From Collinsella sp. AF02-46-1 (GTDB taxonomy: Bacteria; Actinomycetota; Coriobacteriia; Coriobacteriales; Coriobacteriaceae), in assembly GCF_003465825.1 (NCBI RefSeq), contig NZ_QSBV01000002.1, positions 62,001 through 126,000 of the forward strand: a stretch of 64,000 bases of DNA. Direction: 5' to 3'. The notes beneath the pieces were generated by a model. The model made no database searches. It was not told where the DNA came from and saw only the letters and a list, made by a program, of their open reading frames with translations. Position 1 is the stretch's first letter, and each line of letters opens with the position of its first letter. Made by a program: the position numbers and the translations under genes. Of this stretch, positions 23,575 to 63,260 are shown in pieces.

Positions 23575-23640
23575 TTGCAAAACGTTGTAGATGAGTATAC
23601 TACAACTCGAAACGAAACCGATTTCGTAAACCGATTTCGG
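23575..23640 (+). promoter_or_regulatory. kdgK promoter and LacI-type operators
   Basis: TTGCAA (23575-23580), 15 nt, TATACT (23596-23601), then the palindrome CGAAACCGATTTCG at 23613-23626 and a second half-matching site AAACCGATTTCGG at 23628-23640. The same promoter-operator layout recurs at 26921-26970 upstream of the YczE-like gene. The operators lie just downstream of the -10 box, a repressing position. Confidence 0.7.
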
Positions 23641-23643
23641 CAA

Positions 23644-23701
23644 GCGTTGGCACGGAGGTGCAAAGATGCACCCTACCGTCTTGGCACCTCCGTGCCAACG
23701 C
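23644..23701 (+). ncRNA. kdgK leader hairpin A1 with conserved loop
   Basis: An 18-bp perfect stem (left arm 23644-23661, right arm 23684-23701) capped by a 22-nt loop containing AAGA, then GCACCCTACC, then TCTT. The leader of the YczE-like gene has a stem of unrelated sequence (26978-27029) capped by a 22-nt loop identical at 19 positions. A paired stem that changes while the loop stays fixed is the signature of a selected RNA structure. It begins 4 bp after the last operator, so it is the 5' end of the kdgK transcript. Confidence 0.65.
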
Positions 23702-23744: not shown

Positions 23745-24779
23745 ATGGGTAAAACGGTTCTTACCTTCGGCGAGATCATGATGAGGCTCTCGCCCAAAGA
23801 TCACCTGCGCATTGAGCAGGCCACCGAGTTTGATGTCCGCTACGGCGGTGCCGAGGCCAACACCGCCCTTTCCCTGGCCTACCAGGGTGACAAGGCCGCT
23901 TACGTCTCCGTTGTCCCGGCCAACCGTCTGGGCGAGTGCGCCCTGCGTTCGCTGAAGGTCTACGACGTCGATACCTCGCGCGTCGTGCGCCAGGGCGACC
24001 GTCTTGGCTCCTATGTGTTTGAGGTCGGCGCCTCGCAGCGCGGCAACGGCTGCGTCTACGACCGCAAGTACTCTGCCATCAACATGGCCAAGCGCGACGT
24101 CTTTGACTGGGACGAGATCCTCAAGGGCATCGACGTCTTCTACTTCTCCGGCGTGACGCCCGCCGTCTCCGACGAGATGGCCGCCGCCTGCAAGGATGCC
24201 CTCACCGCCTGCCGCGCCAAAGGCATCACCACCGTGTGCGACGTGAACTATCGCGGCAAGATGTGGTCGCCCGAGAAGTCGCAGGCCACCATGAAGGAAC
24301 TCCTGCCGCTCGTTGACATCTGCATTGCCAACGACGAGGACGCTCCTGCCGGTCTCGGTATGACCTGCGTCTCCGGCTCCCTTGCCCACGGCATCGAGGA
24401 GCGCGACACCTACGTCGAGATGGCCCGTCAGATCTGCGCCGAGTACGGTTGCAAGAAGGTTGCCTCGGTCGTCCGCAACATCTCCTGCGTCGAGCGCTCC
24501 ATCTGGATGGGCATGCTCTTTGACGCCGAGAGCGGCGAGCACTGGTTCTCCCCTGCTCACGATGTGCACGTGCTCGAGGGCGTTGCCGCCGGCGACGCTT
24601 TTAACGCCGGCCTCGTCCATGCCCTCATCAACGACTTCGACCCGCAGGACGCCGTCAACTACGCGATTGCGGCCTCGATCCTCAAGCTCACCATCAAGGG
24701 CGATTCCAACCTGGTGACCGCAGACGAGATCGCAGCCGTGGCATCCGCCGCCGACGGTGGCACTCGCGTCGCGCGCTAA
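23745..24779 (+). CDS. kdgK: 2-keto-3-deoxygluconate kinase
   Basis: A 344-residue PfkB-family sugar kinase. The N-terminus is GKTVLTFGEIMMRLSP; YGGAEANTALSLAYQG and the C-terminal catalytic motif LEGVAAGDAFNAGLVHAL (Asp base; family motif GAGDAF) are present. In this locus it should phosphorylate KDG to KDPG, the step before the aldolase encoded next. The ATG at 23745 has AAGGAG 10 nt upstream. Codon use is strongly biased to C/G-ending codons, suggesting high expression. KDG specificity is inferred from context; fructokinase-like relatives exist. Confidence 0.9.
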   Translation: MGKTVLTFGEIMMRLSPKDHLRIEQATEFDVRYGGAEANTALSLAYQGDKAAYVSVVPANRLGECALRSLKVYDVDTSRVVRQGDRLGSYVFEVGASQRGNGCVYDRKYSAINMAKRDVFDWDEILKGIDVFYFSGVTPAVSDEMAAACKDALTACRAKGITTVCDVNYRGKMWSPEKSQATMKELLPLVDICIANDEDAPAGLGMTCVSGSLAHGIEERDTYVEMARQICAEYGCKKVASVVRNISCVERSIWMGMLFDAESGEHWFSPAHDVHVLEGVAAGDAFNAGLVHALINDFDPQDAVNYAIAASILKLTIKGDSNLVTADEIAAVASAADGGTRVAR

Positions 24780-24793
24780 GCCGTCCCCATTCC

Positions 24794-24833
24794 GCGGGCC
24801 GCAGCTTTCCATACCCATACCTCTGCGGCCCGC
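24794..24833 (+). ncRNA. kdgA leader hairpin A'
   Basis: Eleven-bp perfect stem GCGGGCCGCAG/CTGCGGCCCGC with an 18-nt pyrimidine-rich loop that includes ATACCCATACC, a looser relative of the A1/A2 loop core GCACCCTACC. It lies 15 bp after the kdgK stop codon and before the pseudoknot element. Confidence 0.45.
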
Positions 24834-24852
24834 TCCCCGATTCCTCCGGTCG

Positions 24853-24983
24853 GGCAAAACCACCAGTCCCATTCCGGTTTTGCCTGGCATTTCCTACACG
24901 ACTGGTCGCGCAGCCGGTTTTGGAATTGCTTGTGACCCCAAGCAGTGCCTCCGATAACCAATCCAAAACCGGCTCATGACCAG
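24853..24983 (+). ncRNA. kdgA leader: covarying pseudoknot (B) plus switch-like long stem (C)
   Basis: B: P1 GGCAAAACC (24853-24861) pairs with 24876-24884. The loop strand ACCAGTC (24862-24868) pairs with GACTGGT (24900-24906) as a pseudoknot. C: AGCCGGTTTTGGA (24912-24924) pairs with 24962-24974 and encloses a small hairpin followed by the invariant GCAGTGCCTCCGATAACC (24942-24959). CTGGTC (24902-24907) can instead pair with GACCAG (24978-24983), which would exclude the pseudoknot. Every helix is matched, in different sequence, at 27054-27179. No protein fits this 254-bp gap. I read it as a cis-regulatory RNA of kdgA, possibly a riboswitch; no known class was recognised. Confidence 0.7.
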
Positions 24984-25033
24984 CATATTTGGCAATCACG
25001 CGCCCGCGCGCGCCGTACATCGAAAGGAACATC

Positions 25034-25675
25034 ATGTTCGATCAGTTCTACACCACGCTTGAGTCCCTGGGCATCGTGCCGGTCGTCGTGCTCGACAAGG
25101 TCGAGGACGCCGCTCCGCTCGCCCACGCCCTTATGGCAGCAGGCATGAAGTCCGCCGAGGTCACCTTCCGCACCGCCTGCGCCGCCGAGTGCATCGCCGC
25201 CATGGCCGAGGCCGAGCCTGAGATGTGCGTTGGCGCCGGCACCGTCCTGACTGTCGAGCAGGTTGAGCAGGCCCGCGCCGCCGGTGCCAAGTTCATCGTC
25301 TCCCCGGGCTACAACGAGGACGTCGTGAAGCACTGCATCGACATCGACCTGCCCGTCCTTCCCGGTACCGTGACCCCCTCCGAGGTCACCGCGGCCGAGA
25401 ACCTGGGCCTCAAGATCACCAAGTTCTTCCCCGCGGCTCAGTATGGTGGCCTGAACACCATCAAGGCCCTCGCCGCTCCGTTTGTCGGTCATCGCTTTAT
25501 GCCCACCGGCGGCGTGAGCACCGCCAACGTCGAGGAGTACCTGAGCTCCAGCGCCATCATCGCCTGTGGTGGCACCTGGATGGTCAAGCCGGCTCTGTTC
25601 GCCGACGGCGACTTCTCCAAGGTCGAGCAGATCGCCCGCGAGGCCATGGACGTCGTCAAGAAGGTCCGCGGCTAG
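25034..25675 (+). CDS. kdgA: KDPG aldolase (2-keto-3-deoxy-6-phosphogluconate / 4-hydroxy-2-oxoglutarate aldolase)
   Basis: A 213-residue class I aldolase cleaving KDPG to pyruvate and glyceraldehyde 3-phosphate. The Schiff-base lysine is Lys130 in LKITKFFPA, and the catalytic Glu42/Arg46 pair sits in AEVTFRT. GTVTPSE and PTGGVS are the phosphate and substrate loops. Length is normal. The ATG at 25034 has AAAGGAAC 4 nt upstream. It follows kdgK across a 254-bp structured leader, so it can be co-transcribed and separately tuned at the RNA level. Confidence 0.95.
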   Translation: MFDQFYTTLESLGIVPVVVLDKVEDAAPLAHALMAAGMKSAEVTFRTACAAECIAAMAEAEPEMCVGAGTVLTVEQVEQARAAGAKFIVSPGYNEDVVKHCIDIDLPVLPGTVTPSEVTAAENLGLKITKFFPAAQYGGLNTIKALAAPFVGHRFMPTGGVSTANVEEYLSSSAIIACGGTWMVKPALFADGDFSKVEQIAREAMDVVKKVRG

Positions 25676-25692
25676 GTTTAGCTCTCTATCGT

Positions 25693-25730
25693 GAAAGGGG
25701 GCGTGTCCTAGACCTCGCCCCCTTTCTTTT
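25693..25730 (+). terminator. Rho-independent terminator after kdgA
   Basis: GAAAGGGGGCG (25693-25703) pairs with CGCCCCCTTTC (25716-25726), followed by TTTT. Confidence 0.85.
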
Positions 25731-25966
25731 AAAGCGGCTCGGAAGCGCGCCGTTTCCGTCACGAACAAGAACCAAAACCGTCTTGTATGCTGATAGAACG
25801 TGACGGAAGCGACACGCCCCCGAGCCGCTTTTCCTACTCGGCTGGTAGTCGCGCCCAGCTGAGCCACTTCGACAAAAGCCGAGCCACCAAAACAGCTGCG
25901 GCGCCGCCTGAAGGAATGGACCCTTGCTTCCGGTCTTTTCCTCCAAGCGGCGCCGCAGCTTTTTCA
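25731..25966 (+). ncRNA. Candidate structured RNA between kdgA and the GntR gene
   Basis: No gene is visible here, but two large folds are. First, nested helices of 12 bp (25731-25742 with 25820-25831), 10 bp (TTCCGTCACG 25754-25763 with 25799-25808) and 6 bp (ACAAGA with TCTTGT, loop ACCAAAACCG). The apical AAGA...TCTT resembles hairpin A. Second, a 14-bp stem AGCTGCGGCGCCGC (25894-25907 with 25947-25960) followed by TTTTT, terminator-like. Together they could be an independent small RNA or downstream processing structures of the kdg transcript. Confidence 0.45.
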
Positions 25967-25987
25967 TGCCCCGATGTGTCCCAGCAC

Positions 25988-26050
25988 TTGCGGTGAAATA
26001 GGGACTGTTTACGCCGTCAGAGCCGCAAAACAATCCTTATTTCACCGCAA
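25988..26050. repeat. 63-bp palindromic repeat, TTGCGGTG family, copy 1
   Basis: Arms TTGCGGTGAAATA (25988-26000) and complement TTATTTCACCGCAA (26037-26050), with an interior carrying GGGACTGTTT and AAAACAATCC. A second copy with the same arms and related interior is at 33696-33758. It lies 16 bp past the GntR gene stop codon. Confidence 0.7.
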
Positions 26051-26066
26051 CTAATGTAGGGGCGAG

Positions 26067-26759
26067 TTAGATGGCCGAGTCTTTGGACAGCTCAAAGTAG
26101 TCGGGATGCAAGGCGATAACCGGACCCTGCTCCTCGGGCATCAGGTGCAAGTGCGTCTCTGCCAGGTAGCTCGCCGTGTCGGTATCGCCCCTCTTAATGG
26201 CCTCGAGAATCCGACGATGTTGTCGACGAATCGGCTCCCAATCCAGATCCTGCGACACCATACGCAACCAGTTGTATCGCTCAAAATGCGTGTTGACGCT
26301 CTTCATCCAATCCCACAGCATGTGACGACCGGCAATCTCAAAACACGTCTCATGAAACAGGTTATCCAAGTCGAAAAAGCGACGCGTCTCGCTATGGTCG
26401 AGCGACTCGGACTCGGCAAGAATCTGCTCGAGCCGATGCTTTTGCTCGGACGTGGCAGCCGAACAACATTTAATGAGTACGCTTCTTTCGAGTTTCTCGC
26501 GCAAGAAACAGGCATTCTCGGCGTGTTCCATGCTGATCTTAGAGACGTAGGTGCCGCTCTTGGGACGCGTTTCCACCAGCTCTTGCTCGCGCAGGCGCAC
26601 AAAGGACTCGCGAATTGGCGTGCGCCCGATCCCCGTCTCCTTTTCCAGACCAATCGCCGAAAGGCGCGTGCCGGGCTTGAGCTCGGCATAGATGATCTTG
26701 GAGCGTAATGCGTTGTATGCCTGATCTTGCAGGCTCTGATAATGCTGGTGCTGTTCCAT
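26067..26759 (-). CDS. GntR family regulator, FadR/FCD subgroup
   Basis: A 230-residue regulator. The winged helix covers residues about 8-75 (AYNALRSKIIYAELKPGTRLS, then GRTPIRESFVRLREQELVETRPKSGTYVS). The C-terminal all-helical FCD domain (about 85-215) has the metal/ligand His and Asp pattern (DLDNLFHETCFEIAG, HRRILEAIKRGDTD, ETHLHLM). FCD regulators commonly answer to sugar acids or organic acids (UxuR, ExuR, GntR), which fits this uronate locus. The start ATG at 26759 follows GAGGG; a GTG at 26801 lacks a ribosome binding site. It is divergent from the YczE-like gene. Confidence 0.8.
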   Translation of the reverse strand: MEQHQHYQSLQDQAYNALRSKIIYAELKPGTRLSAIGLEKETGIGRTPIRESFVRLREQELVETRPKSGTYVSKISMEHAENACFLREKLERSVLIKCCSAATSEQKHRLEQILAESESLDHSETRRFFDLDNLFHETCFEIAGRHMLWDWMKSVNTHFERYNWLRMVSQDLDWEPIRRQHRRILEAIKRGDTDTASYLAETHLHLMPEEQGPVIALHPDYFELSKDSAI

Positions 26760-26884
26760 AAAGCCCTCGGATGAAGCCCACGGTTTGTCGAATAACTCCA
26801 CGTAATACTATCGCATCCCCCATCCCACGGCGATGTTTGAGGGGTAGGGCCGGGATTCGGCTTTTGACCGATAAGTTGTTGCAA

Positions 26885-26904
26885 TTAGGTGAACGTTCAC
26901 CTAA
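26885..26904. promoter_or_regulatory. Perfect 20-bp LacI-type operator palindrome
   Basis: TTAGGTGAACGTTCACCTAA, a perfect palindrome centred on CG, 16 bp upstream of the TTGCAA -35 box at 26921. It matches the operators upstream of uxaC, the transporter, GH105 and the dehydrogenase gene, so the YczE-like gene appears to answer to both regulators of the locus. Confidence 0.8.
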
Positions 26905-26920
26905 TTTCTTCTATTTCGCT

Positions 26921-26970
26921 TTGCAAATGGATTCCCATGCGTATACTAAATCTCAACGAAACCGATTTCG
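26921..26970 (+). promoter_or_regulatory. Promoter and CGAAACCGATTTCG operator of the YczE-like gene
   Basis: TTGCAA (26921-26926), 15 nt, TATACT (26942-26947) and the palindrome CGAAACCGATTTCG (26957-26970): the same elements and -35/-10 spacing as kdgK. It implies control by the LacI regulator at 22487-23509. Confidence 0.7.
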
Positions 26971-26977
26971 TCAAGCC

Positions 26978-27029
26978 TGGGCAATAGGATGCTAAGACGC
27001 ACCCTACCATCTTGGCATCCTATTGCCCA
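26978..27029 (+). ncRNA. Leader hairpin A2 with conserved loop
   Basis: Fifteen-bp stem (TGGGCAATAGGATGC 26978-26992 with 27015-27029) capped by a 22-nt loop differing from that of A1 at only 3 positions (core GCACCCTACC). It starts 7 bp after the operator, at the 5' end of the transcript. Confidence 0.65.
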
Positions 27030-27053
27030 TGCCATGCCATTTGCTTTCTTCCC

Positions 27054-27179
27054 GTCTCGTTGAGCCCTTCAGTCCCATTCTGGCACAACGAGACATTCCT
27101 AGACGACTGACCATGGGGCCGGCTTTTCTGCCGTTGAGGCAGTGCCTCCGATAACCCTCTTTTTGCCGGCCCAGGTCAG
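27054..27179 (+). ncRNA. Leader of the YczE-like gene: pseudoknot (B) plus switch-like stem (C), second copy
   Basis: P1 GTCTCGTTG (27054-27062) pairs with 27086-27094. Loop strand TCAGTC (27069-27074) pairs with GACTGA (27105-27110). C outer strand CTGACC (27107-27112) pairs alternatively with GGTCAG (27174-27179). GGGCCGGC (27116-27123) pairs with 27165-27172; a CTGCC/GGCAG hairpin is followed by the invariant 18-nt strand (27139-27156). Compared with the kdgA leader, stem sequences differ but pair, while single-stranded CAGTCCCATTC, CCTA and the 18-mer are kept. Confidence 0.7.
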
Positions 27180-27222
27180 ACATTTCTCTTTAAATATCCT
27201 TCAATCGAAAGGATGCAGCAGC

Positions 27223-27906
27223 ATGCGACCGCTCATCATCATGCATGGCGAGAAGATCGACTGGCGTCATACCGTCATAAGAATGCTGATGTATCTGGCG
27301 GGCGTTGCCGTGCTGGCACTCGGTATGAGCCTCCAGACGGCATCTGGCCTGGGCGTCGCCGCGCTCACGTGCTTTGCCACGACCCTATCCATGCTCACGG
27401 GCAAGACGCTCGGCTTTTGGATTACAACTACCTATGTCGCTTACATCGCGGCGCAGCTCGCCATCTTGCGACGCGAATTTCAACCGCGCATTTTGCTCGA
27501 GCTTTGCTTTTCAACGCTAATGGGCGGCTTCACCGATCTGTTCATGGCGTTCAACCCGCTGCATCCCACGGCGCTCCCCGCGCAGGTTGCGACCATGCTG
27601 CTCTCCCTCGCTATCACCGCATTTGGCGTCAGTCTCGTCGTCAACATGGGCGTTGTCCCCAACGCACCCGACGGCTTGGTGCAGGTCATTGCGGAAAAGC
27701 TCAAGCGCCGTTTTGGAGACGTAAAGGTCATGTTCGATTGCTCGCATGTCGCCGCCTCGCTCACGCTGTCGCTGGTATGCATGCACAACTTAGGCGGCTT
27801 TGGCGTAACCACCGCCATCTCGGCACTGTTCTTGGGCCACATCATCAACTTCGCCAACAAGCTGTTTGCCCAGCGATTCGTCCGCATGGCGTTTGGCGCC
27901 AAATAG
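27223..27906 (+). CDS. YczE/YitT-like integral membrane protein
   Basis: A 227-residue membrane protein. About five hydrophobic segments begin with MLMYLAGVAVLALGMSLQTASGLGVAAL, the pattern of YczE/YyaS/YitT proteins (an internal GLGVxxLT motif). Function in the family is not established. Its promoter, CGAAACCGATTTCG operator and structured leader copy those of kdgK and kdgA, and a second uronate operator lies upstream, so I infer a role in uronate or KDG metabolism, perhaps transport. The ATG at 27223 has AAAGGA 10 nt upstream. A 27-residue upstream extension would read through the leader structure and is rejected. Confidence 0.75.
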   Translation: MRPLIIMHGEKIDWRHTVIRMLMYLAGVAVLALGMSLQTASGLGVAALTCFATTLSMLTGKTLGFWITTTYVAYIAAQLAILRREFQPRILLELCFSTLMGGFTDLFMAFNPLHPTALPAQVATMLLSLAITAFGVSLVVNMGVVPNAPDGLVQVIAEKLKRRFGDVKVMFDCSHVAASLTLSLVCMHNLGGFGVTTAISALFLGHIINFANKLFAQRFVRMAFGAK

Positions 27907-31628: not shown

Positions 31629-33578
31629 CTACAGCTCGCAGGCAACCTTGTAGCCATCGCCGATGGCATCGCGGATGTTGCCGCACTTGTTGGCATCGCC
31701 CAGCACGTGGGTGGCAACACCGGCAGCGGCAAGGTCGTCGGCCAACTTGGTATTGGGACGATAGCCCATGGCGAGCACCAGCGTATCGGCATCGGCGATG
31801 GTGTGGGCCTCGCCATCCTTCTCGTAGCTGATGGCATCCTCGGTGATCTCGGTCACCTTGGCCTCGGTTAGCACATGGACGCCCTTGGAGAGCATGCGCG
31901 TGATGAGCACCGCGCGACCGGCACCACCCTCGTTGGCGGCGAGCGTCTTGGTCATCTCGATAACGGTGATGTCGCGGTTTGCCGGCGACAGATCGTTGAC
32001 CAACGGGGCCAGGTAATCGGCCGTCTCGCAACCGACGGTGCCGCCGCCCACGATGACAATCTTCTTGCCCGGGAAAGCCTTGCCACCCAGCAGGTCGTCA
32101 GCCGTCATGACCTGCTTAAATCCCTGCATAAAGGCCGGGGCGATGGGTTCGGCGCCATAAGCCAGGACAACCTCGTAGCCCGCGTAGTCGCGCTGGATGT
32201 CCTCGGCCGAAAGCTCGGTACCGAAGACGCACGTGACGCCGGCCTCGGCCAGGCGACGGTACTGATACTTGATCACGCGCGTGAGCTCCTGCTTTGCCGG
32301 CGGAACGGCCGCAATGCGCATCTCGCCGCCCGGCTCGTCCTGCTTATCCACGAGCACCACGTTATGGCCGCGCTTGGCGGCAATATAGGCTGCCTCCATG
32401 CCCGCGGGACCGGCACCCACAACGAGCACGTTCTTTGCCTCGGCGGCAGGCTCGTAGCCAGCCTCGTCACGCTCCACGTCCGGGTTGACGGTGCAGGAGA
32501 TGCGCTTGCCAAACATGATACCGTTCAGGCAGCGCAGGCAACCGATGCAGGGGCGGATGTCGTCGGCGTTGCCGGCAGCAGCCTTGTTGCAGAATTCGGC
32601 ATCGCACAGATTGGCGCGGCCCATCATGCAAATGTCGGCAGCGCCGTCCTCGATCAGCTCCTCGGCGATCCATGCCTCGTTAATGCGGCCGACCGTGGCA
32701 ACGGGAATGTTGACGTGCTTTTTGATCTCGCGCGAGCAGGCGGCGTGCGAGGCCTGCTGCGTGCCGGCGGCGGGAATGGCGGAACCGCGCTTGATGGTGG
32801 TGCCGCCCGACACATGAATCATGTCGACGCCGGCCTTCTCCAGGCGACGCGAGACGTAGATCATGTCGTTGAGGGTCAGGCCGCCATCGGTGTACTCGTC
32901 GCCCGAGATACGGACGTCGATGATAAAGTCCTTGCCGCAGCGCTCGCGAATCTCGGCGATGACCTCGAGCAGGAAGCGCATGCGGGCGTCGAGCGAGCCG
33001 CCGTACTCGTCGGTGCGCTTGTTATAGAGCGGGGTCAAAAAGCCGCCGAGCATGCCGTGGGCGTGTGCCGCATGGACCTCGACGCCGTCGACACCGGCCT
33101 TCTGCATGCGCACAGCAGCGTCACCAAACTGATGCGTGAGCTCGTGGATCTCATCGACCGTGATGGGGCGCGGCGCCTCGCGGGCATAGGACGGGCCCAC
33201 AAAGGACGGAGCGATCAGGCGCGGCGTGCCCGGAATGTTAAAGGCCATGTAGGCGGGGTGGAAGAGCTGCGGCATGATCTTGCAGCCATACTCGTGGACG
33301 GCCGCGGCGAGCTTTTCCCAGCCAGGGATAAACGTGTCGTCGTAGCAGCACATGTCACCCGGTAGATAGGTATAGGTGGGCTCGACCGTCACGACCTCGG
33401 TGATGATGAGGCCCACGCCGCCCTTGGCACGGGCACGGTAATGATCGACCAAGTCGTCGGTCACATAGCCATGATCGGCCAGGTTCGTGGACACCGGCGG
33501 CATAAAGACGCGGTTCTTGACCTCGGTCGTACCGACCTTGATCGGGCTAAAGAGCATCGGGTAGGCGGAAGACTCCAT
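31629..33578 (-). CDS. NADH:flavin oxidoreductase / enoate reductase (Old Yellow Enzyme with Fe-S and FAD domains)
   Basis: A 649-residue multi-cofactor reductase. Residues 1-360 form an FMN-binding TIM barrel (LFSPIKVGTTEVKNRVFMPP, HAAHAHGMLGGFLTPLYNKRTDEYGG cut here to its core). A 4Fe-4S site follows (CIGCLRC, then C 11 residues on), then FAD- and NAD(P)-binding Rossmann parts (VLVVGAGPAGMEAAY near 390; IVIVGGGTVGCETADYL near 520). Homologues include 2,4-dienoyl-CoA reductase and the bile-acid enzymes BaiCD/BaiH; the substrate cannot be assigned. The ATG at 33578 has AAAGGAA upstream. It is separated from the upstream gene by a palindromic repeat. Confidence 0.88.
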   Translation of the reverse strand: MESSAYPMLFSPIKVGTTEVKNRVFMPPVSTNLADHGYVTDDLVDHYRARAKGGVGLIITEVVTVEPTYTYLPGDMCCYDDTFIPGWEKLAAAVHEYGCKIMPQLFHPAYMAFNIPGTPRLIAPSFVGPSYAREAPRPITVDEIHELTHQFGDAAVRMQKAGVDGVEVHAAHAHGMLGGFLTPLYNKRTDEYGGSLDARMRFLLEVIAEIRERCGKDFIIDVRISGDEYTDGGLTLNDMIYVSRRLEKAGVDMIHVSGGTTIKRGSAIPAAGTQQASHAACSREIKKHVNIPVATVGRINEAWIAEELIEDGAADICMMGRANLCDAEFCNKAAAGNADDIRPCIGCLRCLNGIMFGKRISCTVNPDVERDEAGYEPAAEAKNVLVVGAGPAGMEAAYIAAKRGHNVVLVDKQDEPGGEMRIAAVPPAKQELTRVIKYQYRRLAEAGVTCVFGTELSAEDIQRDYAGYEVVLAYGAEPIAPAFMQGFKQVMTADDLLGGKAFPGKKIVIVGGGTVGCETADYLAPLVNDLSPANRDITVIEMTKTLAANEGGAGRAVLITRMLSKGVHVLTEAKVTEITEDAISYEKDGEAHTIADADTLVLAMGYRPNTKLADDLAAAGVATHVLGDANKCGNIRDAIGDGYKVACEL

Positions 33579-37267: not shown

Positions 37268-37335
37268 GGGTGAACGTTTCCCCTAGTGTAACGCGAACGG
37301 GGATTATAGGGTGAACGTTAACCCTATAATCCCCG
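37268..37335. promoter_or_regulatory. Operator pair and 38-bp palindrome upstream of GH105
   Basis: GGGTGAACGTTTCCC at 37268-37282 and GGGTGAACGTTAACCC at 37309-37324. The second lies inside a 38-bp palindrome (37298-37335; arms CGGGGATTATAGGGT) with a single mismatched pair. Each arm contains ATTATA/TATAAT, so -10-like boxes face both ways around the operator core. Confidence 0.65.
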
Positions 37336-48966: not shown

Positions 48967-49005
48967 AAGTGCCTCCGATGGCGATTTACGCCATCGGAGG
49001 CACTT
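48967..49005 (-). terminator. Terminator of the LacI regulator gene
   Basis: A 17-bp perfect stem (AAGTGCCTCCGATGGCG and complement) with loop ATTTA, followed by TTTTTTA on the minus strand, 91 bp past the stop codon at 49096. It shares the 12-mer AGTGCCTCCGAT with the leader element C. Confidence 0.85.
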
Positions 49006-59894: not shown

Positions 59895-60911
59895 ATGACC
59901 CAACCAGTTCGCACCGCACCTACGCTTGCCGAGGTTGCCGCAGCTGCCGGCGTGTCGCGCTCCACGGCATCGCGCGCCCTCAACGATTCGCCCCGCATTA
60001 GCGAGGAAACCAAAAAGCGCGTCCGCGCGGCGGCCAAGGAAGTCAATTTTGTCCCCAACGCTCGTGGCCGAGCGCTCGCTGTCGGGCGCACGGAAATCAT
60101 CGCCGTGCTCGTGACCGAGCCCCTGAGTGAACTCTTCAGCGACCCCACCTATAGCGAGTTTTTGAGCGGCATTACCGAGGAACTGTCGGAGTCGTCCTAT
60201 CTGCCCGTTATCTTGCAGGCGTCTTCTACGCATGAGCGCAACCGCGCACGCGAGCACTTTGAGCGCCGCTCGTTCGACGCCGTGATCGACGTCTCCCCCT
60301 ACAAGGGCAGCGAGCTGCTCGAGGTGCTGCGCGAGCTGGGTGTACCCACCGTGTTGTGCGGCCAGCTCGAGGGCCACCCCTATCGCGATGTGTTCTCGAC
60401 AGTCTACTCTGACGACGAAGAGGGCGGACGCTTTGCAGCGCTCGCTATGAAAGAGCGCGGGCGCAAAGATATCGTCGCCGTGTTGGGACCGCAAGACAAC
60501 CCCGCTGTTGTCGACCGCCTGCGCGGCTACCGCGCCGCCTTGGGCGAAGACCTCCCAGACGCAAACGTTATCTATACCGGCTGGAACAGCGGAGACGGCT
60601 ATCAGGCCATGCACCAGATCCTCGCGCGCGAGATTGCTTTCGATGGCGTGCTCTGCGGATCGGACCGTATCGCGGCTGGCGTCATCACCGCGCTCAACGA
60701 GACAGGCCTATCCGTTCCGGCGGACGCTTCTGTCGTCGGCTTCGACGATCACGAGATTGCGACGCGCTGCGTCCCCGCGCTCACGACCGTCCGCCAGCCC
60801 CTGCGCGAAGAAGGCCACATGGCCGCCAACATTGCGCTCGACATGATCAAGGGTGCCAAGCCAACCACCACCGTCATGCACATGCAGCTCGTTCAGAGAG
60901 ACTCGCTATAA
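59895..60911 (+). CDS. LacI family regulator of the beta-galactosidase operon
   Basis: A 338-residue regulator. The helix-turn-helix TLAEVAAAAGVSRSTASRALN covers residues about 10-30, followed by the hinge and ligand domain (IIAVLVTEPLSELFSDPTYSEFLSGI core AVLVTEPL; VIDVSPYKG; SVVGFDDHEIATRCVPALTTVRQP core GFDDHEIA). It is divergent from ebgA with CAACCGGTTG operators between. The ATG at 59895 has CAGGAG 6 nt upstream. I infer repression relieved by a galactoside. Confidence 0.88.
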   Translation: MTQPVRTAPTLAEVAAAAGVSRSTASRALNDSPRISEETKKRVRAAAKEVNFVPNARGRALAVGRTEIIAVLVTEPLSELFSDPTYSEFLSGITEELSESSYLPVILQASSTHERNRAREHFERRSFDAVIDVSPYKGSELLEVLRELGVPTVLCGQLEGHPYRDVFSTVYSDDEEGGRFAALAMKERGRKDIVAVLGPQDNPAVVDRLRGYRAALGEDLPDANVIYTGWNSGDGYQAMHQILAREIAFDGVLCGSDRIAAGVITALNETGLSVPADASVVGFDDHEIATRCVPALTTVRQPLREEGHMAANIALDMIKGAKPTTTVMHMQLVQRDSL

Positions 60912-60917
60912 GAAACT

Positions 60918-61085
60918 GGGACGGGCTTTCCGCCAGACAGTTGTTGCGGAAAGCCTGTCCCGTTTTGAGTGCTCATTCTGGGGCACAGTTTCCGTTAGAC
61001 CGCTCAACCGGAAACTGTGCCCCATTATTTTGCCGAATTCTGGGTCGCGCTTTCCCAGAGGACCCCCTTTGGGAAAGCGCGACCC
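60918..61085. repeat. Three tandem hairpins of related design
   Basis: H1: GGGACGGGCTTTCCGC (60918-60933) with 60946-60961, followed by GTTTT, the likely lacI terminator. H2: GGGGCACAGTTTCCG (60980-60994) with 61009-61023. H3: GGGTCGCGCTTTCCCA (61042-61057) with 61070-61085. Each stem starts GGG, carries TTTCC on the left arm and GGAAA on the right, and differs elsewhere while still pairing. A partial fourth (ACGCACTTTCCGCG) follows without its partner. They fill the gap between the lacI and aspS stop codons. Confidence 0.65.
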
Positions 61086-61162
61086 GTTCTGGACGCAGAT
61101 TCCGGGACGCACTTTCCGCGACGCCCGGCCATCCCATGCCCCCACAACCTCGGCGCATAAAA

Positions 61163-63004: not shown

Positions 63005-63260
63005 ACCAGTGATCCTCCTTTATGGATCTGTGCCGCCCCGTGTCGTTCCGGGCGGCGTCGTACAGATTTGCCCAGCCTGCGTAAACCGCGCAGCCAGACA
63101 TGGCGTTCTATCTTATCGCACTCGCGTCGATGTGCCGCGAAAAAGTGGCTCCTGCCCAAAGACTTGACGGAGACGAAACAATTGACGCGCCGCGACACCC
63201 GCCCGCGCTCGTCACGTGCGACAATATGCCCCAATAAAACAGCACTCGGAAAGGCCCGCC

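Follow-up and report, generated by a model that had tools for sequence, protein, structure and literature searches.

What are the two RNA elements of like architecture that stand in front of kdgA and of a yczE-like membrane protein gene in Collinsella sp. AF02-46-1, and what would they do there? The window, that is, the whole stretch of DNA analysed, comprises 64,000 nucleotides (nt) of contig NZ_QSBV01000002.1 (positions 62,001 to 126,000), and the two elements, spaced 2.2 kb apart, are copy A, between kdgK and kdgA, and copy B, in the leader of the yczE-like gene. Judged from sequence comparison, they represent a new RNA and a candidate leader switch, clear as a structure, for which the structure itself, the strand, the two possible pairings and the placement are well supported. 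The reading that we favour, tentatively and with somewhat less than even confidence, is that of a cis-acting two-state leader RNA of the 2-keto-3-deoxygluconate (KDG) regulon, in which a pseudoknot would compete with a terminator-like outer stem and a KDG-pathway signal would set the read-through into kdgA and yczE. The parts of the two copies are as follows.

24850 to 24987, plus strand: RNA copy A, whole element; covariance model R1 gives 152.3 bits, this copy being among the 25 sequences from which R1 was built.
24852-24861/24876-24885, plus strand: P1 hairpin of copy A, loop 24862-24875, 9-bp core GGCAAAACC at 24853-24861/24876-24884; in helix 1, 7 of 12 pairs are changed on both sides.
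24862 to 24868, plus strand: 5' strand of the copy A pseudoknot, ACCAGTC, with its partner GACTGGT at 24900-24906.
24900 to 24907, plus strand: switch strand of copy A, GACTGGTC, which can pair with 24862-24868 or with 24978-24983.
24912-24924/24962-24974, plus strand: closing stem P3 of copy A, which holds the inner hairpin P4 (24926-24932/24939-24945).
24946 to 24959, plus strand: conserved unpaired bulge of copy A, TGCCTCCGATAACC, the 3' part of an 18-mer; none of its 14 columns varies over 17 A copies.
24978 to 24983, plus strand: rival 3' strand of copy A (outer stem), GACCAG, from the rival-pairing and alignment analyses.
27054 to 27184, plus strand: RNA copy B, whole element; R1 gives 104.6 bits at 27055-27184, this copy also being among the building sequences.
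27054-27062/27086-27094, plus strand: P1 of copy B, plus an inner GCC/GGC at 27064-27066/27082-27084.
27069 to 27074, plus strand: 5' strand of the copy B pseudoknot, TCAGTC, with its partner GACTGA at 27105-27110.
27105 to 27112, plus strand: switch strand of copy B, GACTGACC, from the rival-pairing analysis.
27116-27123/27165-27172, plus strand: P3 of copy B, with P4 at 27128-27132/27138-27142 and the bulge TGCCTCCGATAACC at 27143-27156.
27174 to 27179, plus strand: rival 3' strand of copy B, GGTCAG, after which comes a T-rich tail.

Common to both copies are P1, the loop pseudoknot, P3, the further hairpin P4, which is a helix added here, and the unpaired 14-mer UGCCUCCGAUAACC, the conserved free part on the 3' side of P3. 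An earlier note on this DNA had named P1, the pseudoknot, the closing stem and the rival strands, and all of them are found in both copies where it had put them; the exact 18-mer that it reported as shared is likewise confirmed, at 24942-24959 in A and 27139-27156 in B. Its description of the 18-mer as unpaired holds for the last 14 nt, which form the bulge, and fails for the first four bases, which close P4, whereas the strand CAGTCCCATTC, also called unpaired, has to give up its CAGTC, which is the pseudoknot strand. Such a conserved unpaired core inside covarying stems, as looked for in riboswitches, is present here: among its 14 columns the bulge has one that varies over the 8 B copies and none that varies over the A copies, and between the RNA and the ribosome-binding site 14 of 37 columns are variable in A and 19 of 23 in B.

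The 18-mer, with one mismatch allowed, occurs at 23 places in 16 of the 43 genomes of the nearest genus (Collinsella), and these places plus the two window copies make a comparison set of 25 copies, 20 of them distinct after alignment. Covariation was counted on the covariance-model alignment, itself fitted to the outer-stem structure. Standard pairs fill 94.6% of the cells in the pseudoknot version (86.4% in shuffles) and 93.1% in the outer-stem version (83.9% in shuffles), with none of 500 shuffles as high in either case, and when the partners are slid along the alignment the pairing reaches about 45% at most. Moreover, changes on both sides are found in 13 pairs of the pseudoknot version (shuffle mean 9.4; 0 of 500 as high) and in 15 of the outer-stem version (shuffle mean 11.0; 3 of 500 as high), being present in P1, P3, P4 and the outer stem. 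Some of these arose within a lineage: the P3 pairs 72-118 and 73-117 go from U-A to C-G in the A2 subgroup (L008, L010, L013 and L023), the outer pair 58-131, which is U-A in most A copies, is C-G in A2, and the last P4 pair is C-G in the window copy B and in L021 and U-A in the other B copies (read from the letters, as the alignment misplaces these two rows). Also, G-U cells outnumber A-C cells by 71 to 14, which argues that the plus strand is the RNA. The main evidence for the predicted structure, and it is strong, comes from the boxes and the order of parts that the copies have in common and from the compensatory changes.

The two folds would part at the switch strand, whose consensus is GACUGRYC and whose letters are GACUGGUC in A (with a UU end in L002), GACUGGCC in A2, GACUGACC in B and AACUGACC in L022. 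The claim that both copies encode two exclusive folds extends well to the relatives, since all 20 distinct rows can form both rival pairings with at least five of six pairs each, counting G-U as a pair and taking as 3' strand the best-pairing window of the tail. The pairing with the P1 loop reaches six of six pairs in 19 rows and five in one, and the outer-stem pairing with the 3' strand reaches six in 16 rows and five in four. At the sixth switch base a G in A faces C on both partner strands and an A in B faces U on both, which amounts to one three-way change; A2 retains the G, with U on the 5' side. The outer stem contributes -9.7 (A) and -9.5 (B) kcal/mol, and the pseudoknot stacking, before loop costs, lies near that gain, at -12.3 (A) and -9.2 (B) kcal/mol. 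As for the tail, it has 3-6 T in its first 10 nt, the window mean being 1.95 and at least 5 T occurring in 3.9% of sampled 10-mers.

Attenuation would be the simplest scheme, with the outer stem and T-rich tail as stop and the pseudoknot as go. As the leader is transcribed, P1 would fold and its loop could capture the start of GACUGRYC, which would give the pseudoknot; the rival strand GACCAG, GGUCAG or GGCCA, transcribed about 70 nt after both pseudoknot strands, would then emerge and could take the same bases. This rival pairing would extend P3 to one long outer stem that, together with the T-rich tail, would stop transcription. The pseudoknot would be held by a KDG-pathway signal, for which a small molecule that binds to the P1 loop, the CCUA linker and the 14-nt bulge is the likeliest candidate, and the polymerase would then continue into kdgA or yczE. 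Co-transcriptional switching, termination, the ON direction and the ligand are steps that we infer; the signal is placed in the KDG route because of the partner genes and of a palindrome shared by two leaders of the locus.

The genes and the promoter-like site that bear on this scheme are the following.

23745 to 24779, plus strand: kdgK, PfkB-family and KDG-kinase-like; all NCBIfam kinase models are under cut-off.
25034 to 25675, plus strand: kdgA (eda), 2-keto-3-deoxy-6-phosphogluconate (KDPG)/KHG aldolase, ATG at 25034; TIGR01182 241.8 bits, cut-off 156.
27223 to 27906, plus strand: yczE-like membrane protein gene, DUF6198; Pfam PF19700 65.8 bits (cut-off 27), NCBIfam YczE 35.2 bits (cut-off 205).
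26920 to 26947, plus strand: promoter-like TTTGCA-16-TATACT upstream of P0 (a leader hairpin described below) and copy B; one site found against a shuffle expectation of 1.5, weak by itself.

In all 17 of its occurrences copy A stands before kdgA, which bears out the association with KDG genes that had been proposed, and all 8 occurrences of copy B are before yczE; these counts include the window, and the RNA is always on the sense strand and in leader position. In the window, copy A has an intercistronic position that follows directly on kdgK and a further hairpin, and the promoter scan gave no promoter-like site belonging to kdgA; copy B is placed between the sole promoter-like site found and yczE, about 35-45 nt remaining to the start codon. 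Both RNAs are therefore probably in the transcription path into their genes. A GntR/FCD regulator gene lies between the copies on the opposite strand (26067-26801), and also present in the window are genes for glucuronate isomerase, tagaturonate reductase and gluconate 5-dehydrogenase (all above cut-off), as well as galactarate-dehydratase-like and GPH-symporter-like proteins (both below cut-off). The KDG genes are adjoined by an oxidoreductase gene (31629-33578, minus strand) whose product is like BaiCD, bilirubin reductase and other enzymes of the old yellow enzyme type, being under the curated cut-off of all 8 models listed.

How far the RNA extends was followed with R1, under which true copies score 100-157 bits, the noise yardstick being the 24 bits given by an unrelated cluster of hairpins in the window (60981-61091). 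R1 matches 16 of 65 family genomes and, in the search of Coriobacteriia that the earlier note had outlined, 16 of 396 class genomes, the same 16 each time; these runs scored 50 candidates per genome for the family and 8 for the class, a depth at which weak relatives can be missed. Apart from the copies themselves, the family run, with its 50 candidates per genome, gave just two matches to R1, both weak, antisense and at the same place. When one genome per species was scanned over 84,980 species, with both boxes exact, 19 stretches were returned: Collinsella (C. aerofaciens or Collinsella sp.) supplied 17 of them, and the other two came from unrelated metagenome-assembled genomes. The same two-box pattern had no match in IMG/VR. 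When loosened, the pattern reached 25 of the 396 class genomes, 9 of them beyond the 16 already known, compared with 13 matches for a reversed control pattern; on one locus from each of these 9 and on the two stretches from outside Collinsella, R1 gave at most 16.2 bits. Run unfiltered, R1 stayed at noise both on 15 more distant kdgA-match loci (best 12.1 bits) and on 23 of 30 further yczE matches, the other seven having no locus (best 16.5 bits). In G039 the kdgK-like end runs to kdgA across a short gap without the RNA, as read by eye. Outside the group, the three yczE orthologues that come nearest (63-66% identity) begin within the end of a kinase gene, whose product in the one tested is IolC (TIGR04382, 378.5 bits, cut-off 300).

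Two side observations concern these searches. The kdgA match of locus L004 (1593-2209, genome G005) is in two pieces in different frames, and the gene may be broken or misassembled. At 48967-49005 of the window there is a terminator-like hairpin, AAGTGCCTCCGATGGCG, which shares the 12 letters AGTGCCTCCGAT with the 18-mer; this is probably chance because in the three RNA-bearing genomes tested, of the 16, the 12-mer is found only inside the RNA.

The kdgK and yczE leaders share more than a neighbourhood, as the following features indicate.

23644 to 23701, plus strand: P0 hairpin in the kdgK leader, core AAGATGCACCCTACCGTCTTG, from comparative search and pairing statistics.
26975 to 27032, plus strand: P0 hairpin of the yczE leader, located upstream of copy B and with the core AAGACGCACCCTACCATCTTG.
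24794 to 24833, plus strand: hairpin that lies after kdgK and before copy A, its loop CTTTCCATACCCATACCT being similar; possibly a third P0-like hairpin, by likeness of the loop.
23613 to 23626, no strand assigned: operator-like palindrome CGAAACCGATTTCG in the kdgK promoter region, from sequence comparison.
26957 to 26970, no strand assigned: palindrome CGAAACCGATTTCG in the yczE promoter region, from sequence comparison.

Both leaders have a -10-like GTATACT, then the palindrome, then the 23-pair hairpin P0, in which the core AAGAyGyACCCUACCrUCUUG is conserved and the outer stems differ in a compensating manner. P0 is found in 16 of the 65 family genomes, the same 16 as the RNA, 16 times before kdgK and 7 before yczE. 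Over 25 sequences with the window (18 distinct), 94.7% of the cells pair, against 84.9% in shuffles; changes on both sides occur in 7 of 23 pairs, a count reached by 73 of 500 shuffles, and further pair types are not above shuffles. These data indicate that P0 is a second conserved leader hairpin, newly described here. In its make-up the yczE leader resembles the promoter of kdgK plus P0, followed by a copy of the RNA that leads kdgA, which suggests a duplication whose pairing was kept through drift. In 3 of the 16 genomes the palindrome was followed further: all three have an exact extra site upstream of an L-lactate-dehydrogenase-like gene (named by eye), where neither the P0 core nor the RNA was seen, G013 has one more exact site close to the yczE leader, and three further sites carry one mismatch.

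Also seen in the window was the palindrome AGGTGAACGTTCACCT, with near copies at 26887, 29712, 43777, 48687 and 48725 (weaker at 37309 and 43737), several of them beside hexuronate genes; its 7 matches at up to 3 mismatches compare with 0.12 expected, and it is possibly the operator of the GntR/FCD protein encoded at 26067-26801. Among other hairpins, three long ones are adjacent at 60910-61100 (minimum free energy -115.8 kcal/mol over 191 nt), resembling repetitive extragenic palindromes (REP), and some over-represented perfect hairpins form families, such as ACCATCACAACATTCGA at 2154, 6283 and 7523.

The two-state leader can be given a more specific form, which we regard as possible and rather doubtful: a new riboswitch class limited to the C. 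aerofaciens group, sensing an intermediate of the KDG/KDPG route (or a related inositol-route sugar acid) and turning on kdgA and the membrane protein by a pseudoknot-against-terminator switch, with P0 in the same regulon.

Several observations weigh against a metabolite-driven two-state leader. With regard to the pseudoknot, the compensatory changes in homologues on which the earlier note had made its proposal depend are found in P1 and the closing stem; in the pseudoknot, variation is mostly from G-C to G-U and no pair changed on both sides is counted in the alignment. That zero arises because the A rows have a gap in the column concerned, and the single position going from C-G to U-A shows only after the A rows are shifted by one column; for these reasons the pseudoknot is likely real rather than proven. 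In the A2 subgroup its stacking is only -6.2 kcal/mol. Further pair types, 28 and 30 in the two versions, compare with shuffle means of 30.0 and 33.9 (488 and 500 of 500 shuffles as high), and, as the sequences form about three groups, many of the double changes represent one A/B split. In copy A the stems are not unusually constant, their variation being about that of the flanking codons at the end of kdgK (45 of 220). The folding z-scores against shuffles, -7.0 (A) and -4.5 (B), carry little weight as evidence, since hairpins abound throughout the window, 32 perfect ones (merged) having arms of at least 10, compared with 2, 2 and 1 (unmerged) in three mononucleotide shuffles. On the side of termination, the T-rich tail is uneven across the copies and not conserved, and the terminator scan, whose loop limit of 3-8 nt excludes such stems, gives none on the plus strand at either RNA and names one minus-strand site in copy A. 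Finally, the R1-matching genomes are all of one genus, which is a very narrow spread for a metabolite riboswitch, and a kdgA match is present in 10 of the 27 genus genomes that lack the RNA.

The narrow spread, together with recurring C-rich boxes, makes a protein trigger a serious rival. One RNA-binding protein or antiterminator would bind the C-rich single strands, namely the P0 loop CACCCUACC, the P1 loop UCCCAUUCC, the linker UUCCCUACA and the bulge CCUCCGAUAACC, and would decide the fold; a lineage-specific protein suits the narrow spread, and the occurrence of P0 and the RNA in the same 16 genomes fits as well. The unpaired boxes in these four places look similar by eye; we regard such a protein-responsive leader as unlikely, although worth keeping in sight. 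A passive messenger element, with no switch and with stems that protect or define message ends for kdgK-kdgA and yczE (in processing, at the 3' end or for stability), would agree with the intercistronic position of copy A behind kdgK and a hairpin and with a window rich in intergenic hairpins. However, such an element needs neither a near-invariant 14-nt bulge nor two retained rival pairings, and we judge it to be distinctly unlikely.

That the RNA instead acts in trans is improbable. Here, a small RNA freed by early termination would cover the ribosome-binding sites of other messages with its CCUCC/UCCC boxes, and the C-rich loops do include an anti-Shine-Dalgarno-like CCUCC (by eye), while copy B has its own promoter-like site and T-rich tail. 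The strict placement before two genes favours cis action, and yczE is probably reached through copy B because the 35-45 nt that follow are too short for another promoter, which also counts against this explanation. Pairing of the CCUCC box with the ribosome-binding site of its own gene was considered too, and it is not kept across the B copies, as read by eye. A mobile or recombination hairpin (REP-like or a transposon end) would account for palindromic elements that occur twice, 2.2 kb from each other, in a window rich in hairpins, and it is very improbable, given one or two fixed places per genome and changes to G-U rather than A-C that indicate RNA. A leader-peptide attenuator is scarcely credible: the frame ATG GGG CCG ... 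CTC CGA TAA is open in the window copy B and stops at the TAA inside the 18-mer (by eye), but as a general explanation it was rejected, since the frame is one base short in L006 and is cut off by an in-frame TAA ahead of the box in L022, and no frame is common to the A copies (by eye).

If the cis-acting two-state leader is correct, DUF6198, a membrane family of unassigned role whose nearest outside orthologues adjoin a kinase gene, would be tied to sugar-acid metabolism. Moreover, the RNA is a small one, found in a common human gut bacterium ahead of a gene for a named enzyme, and it offers two copies as natural variants.

Regarding known families, both RNA parts were compared with Rfam 15 (4227 models) and no family came at or near its gathering score, in agreement with the earlier note, which had recognised no known class. 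At gathering scores the window has only aspS, away from the copies (63016-63099, minus strand, RF02930, 76.1 bits); by E-value all matches are far below gathering score and mostly to microRNA models, those at the copies being mir-2300 (21.3 of 90 bits) and ivy-DE (17.7 of 41.4). The literature searched, at the level of titles and beginnings of abstracts, gave neither a riboswitch for KDG or KDPG nor this motif in print, and the RNA may be listed among the supplementary candidates of a human-microbiome screen with thousands of RNA candidates (PMC8040213). The table entry for the Collinsella-1 motif reads 'y n n' (Weinberg et al. 2010, PMC2864571). Like the RNA described here, Collinsella-1 (RF01700; 196 model positions) is structured, of similar size and from the same genus; unlike it, Collinsella-1 is found in 4 of 5 genomes tested, always at another place, and its covariance model has no match in the window. 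The last two columns of its entry we take to be cis-regulatory and switch. Leaders of the TRAP, LicT and HutP types are protein-dependent attenuators and antiterminators, and their mutually exclusive stems are comparable to those seen here; there is no Rfam match of that kind at the copies, and no search aimed at their protein sites was made. The fluoride, ZTP and like riboswitches are pseudoknotted, bind metabolites and act on a terminator. This RNA differs from them in having no Rfam 15 match at or near a gathering score and in belonging, as far as searched, to one species group. It resembles them in standing before metabolic genes and in a hairpin loop that would pair with a downstream strand which a later strand can claim.

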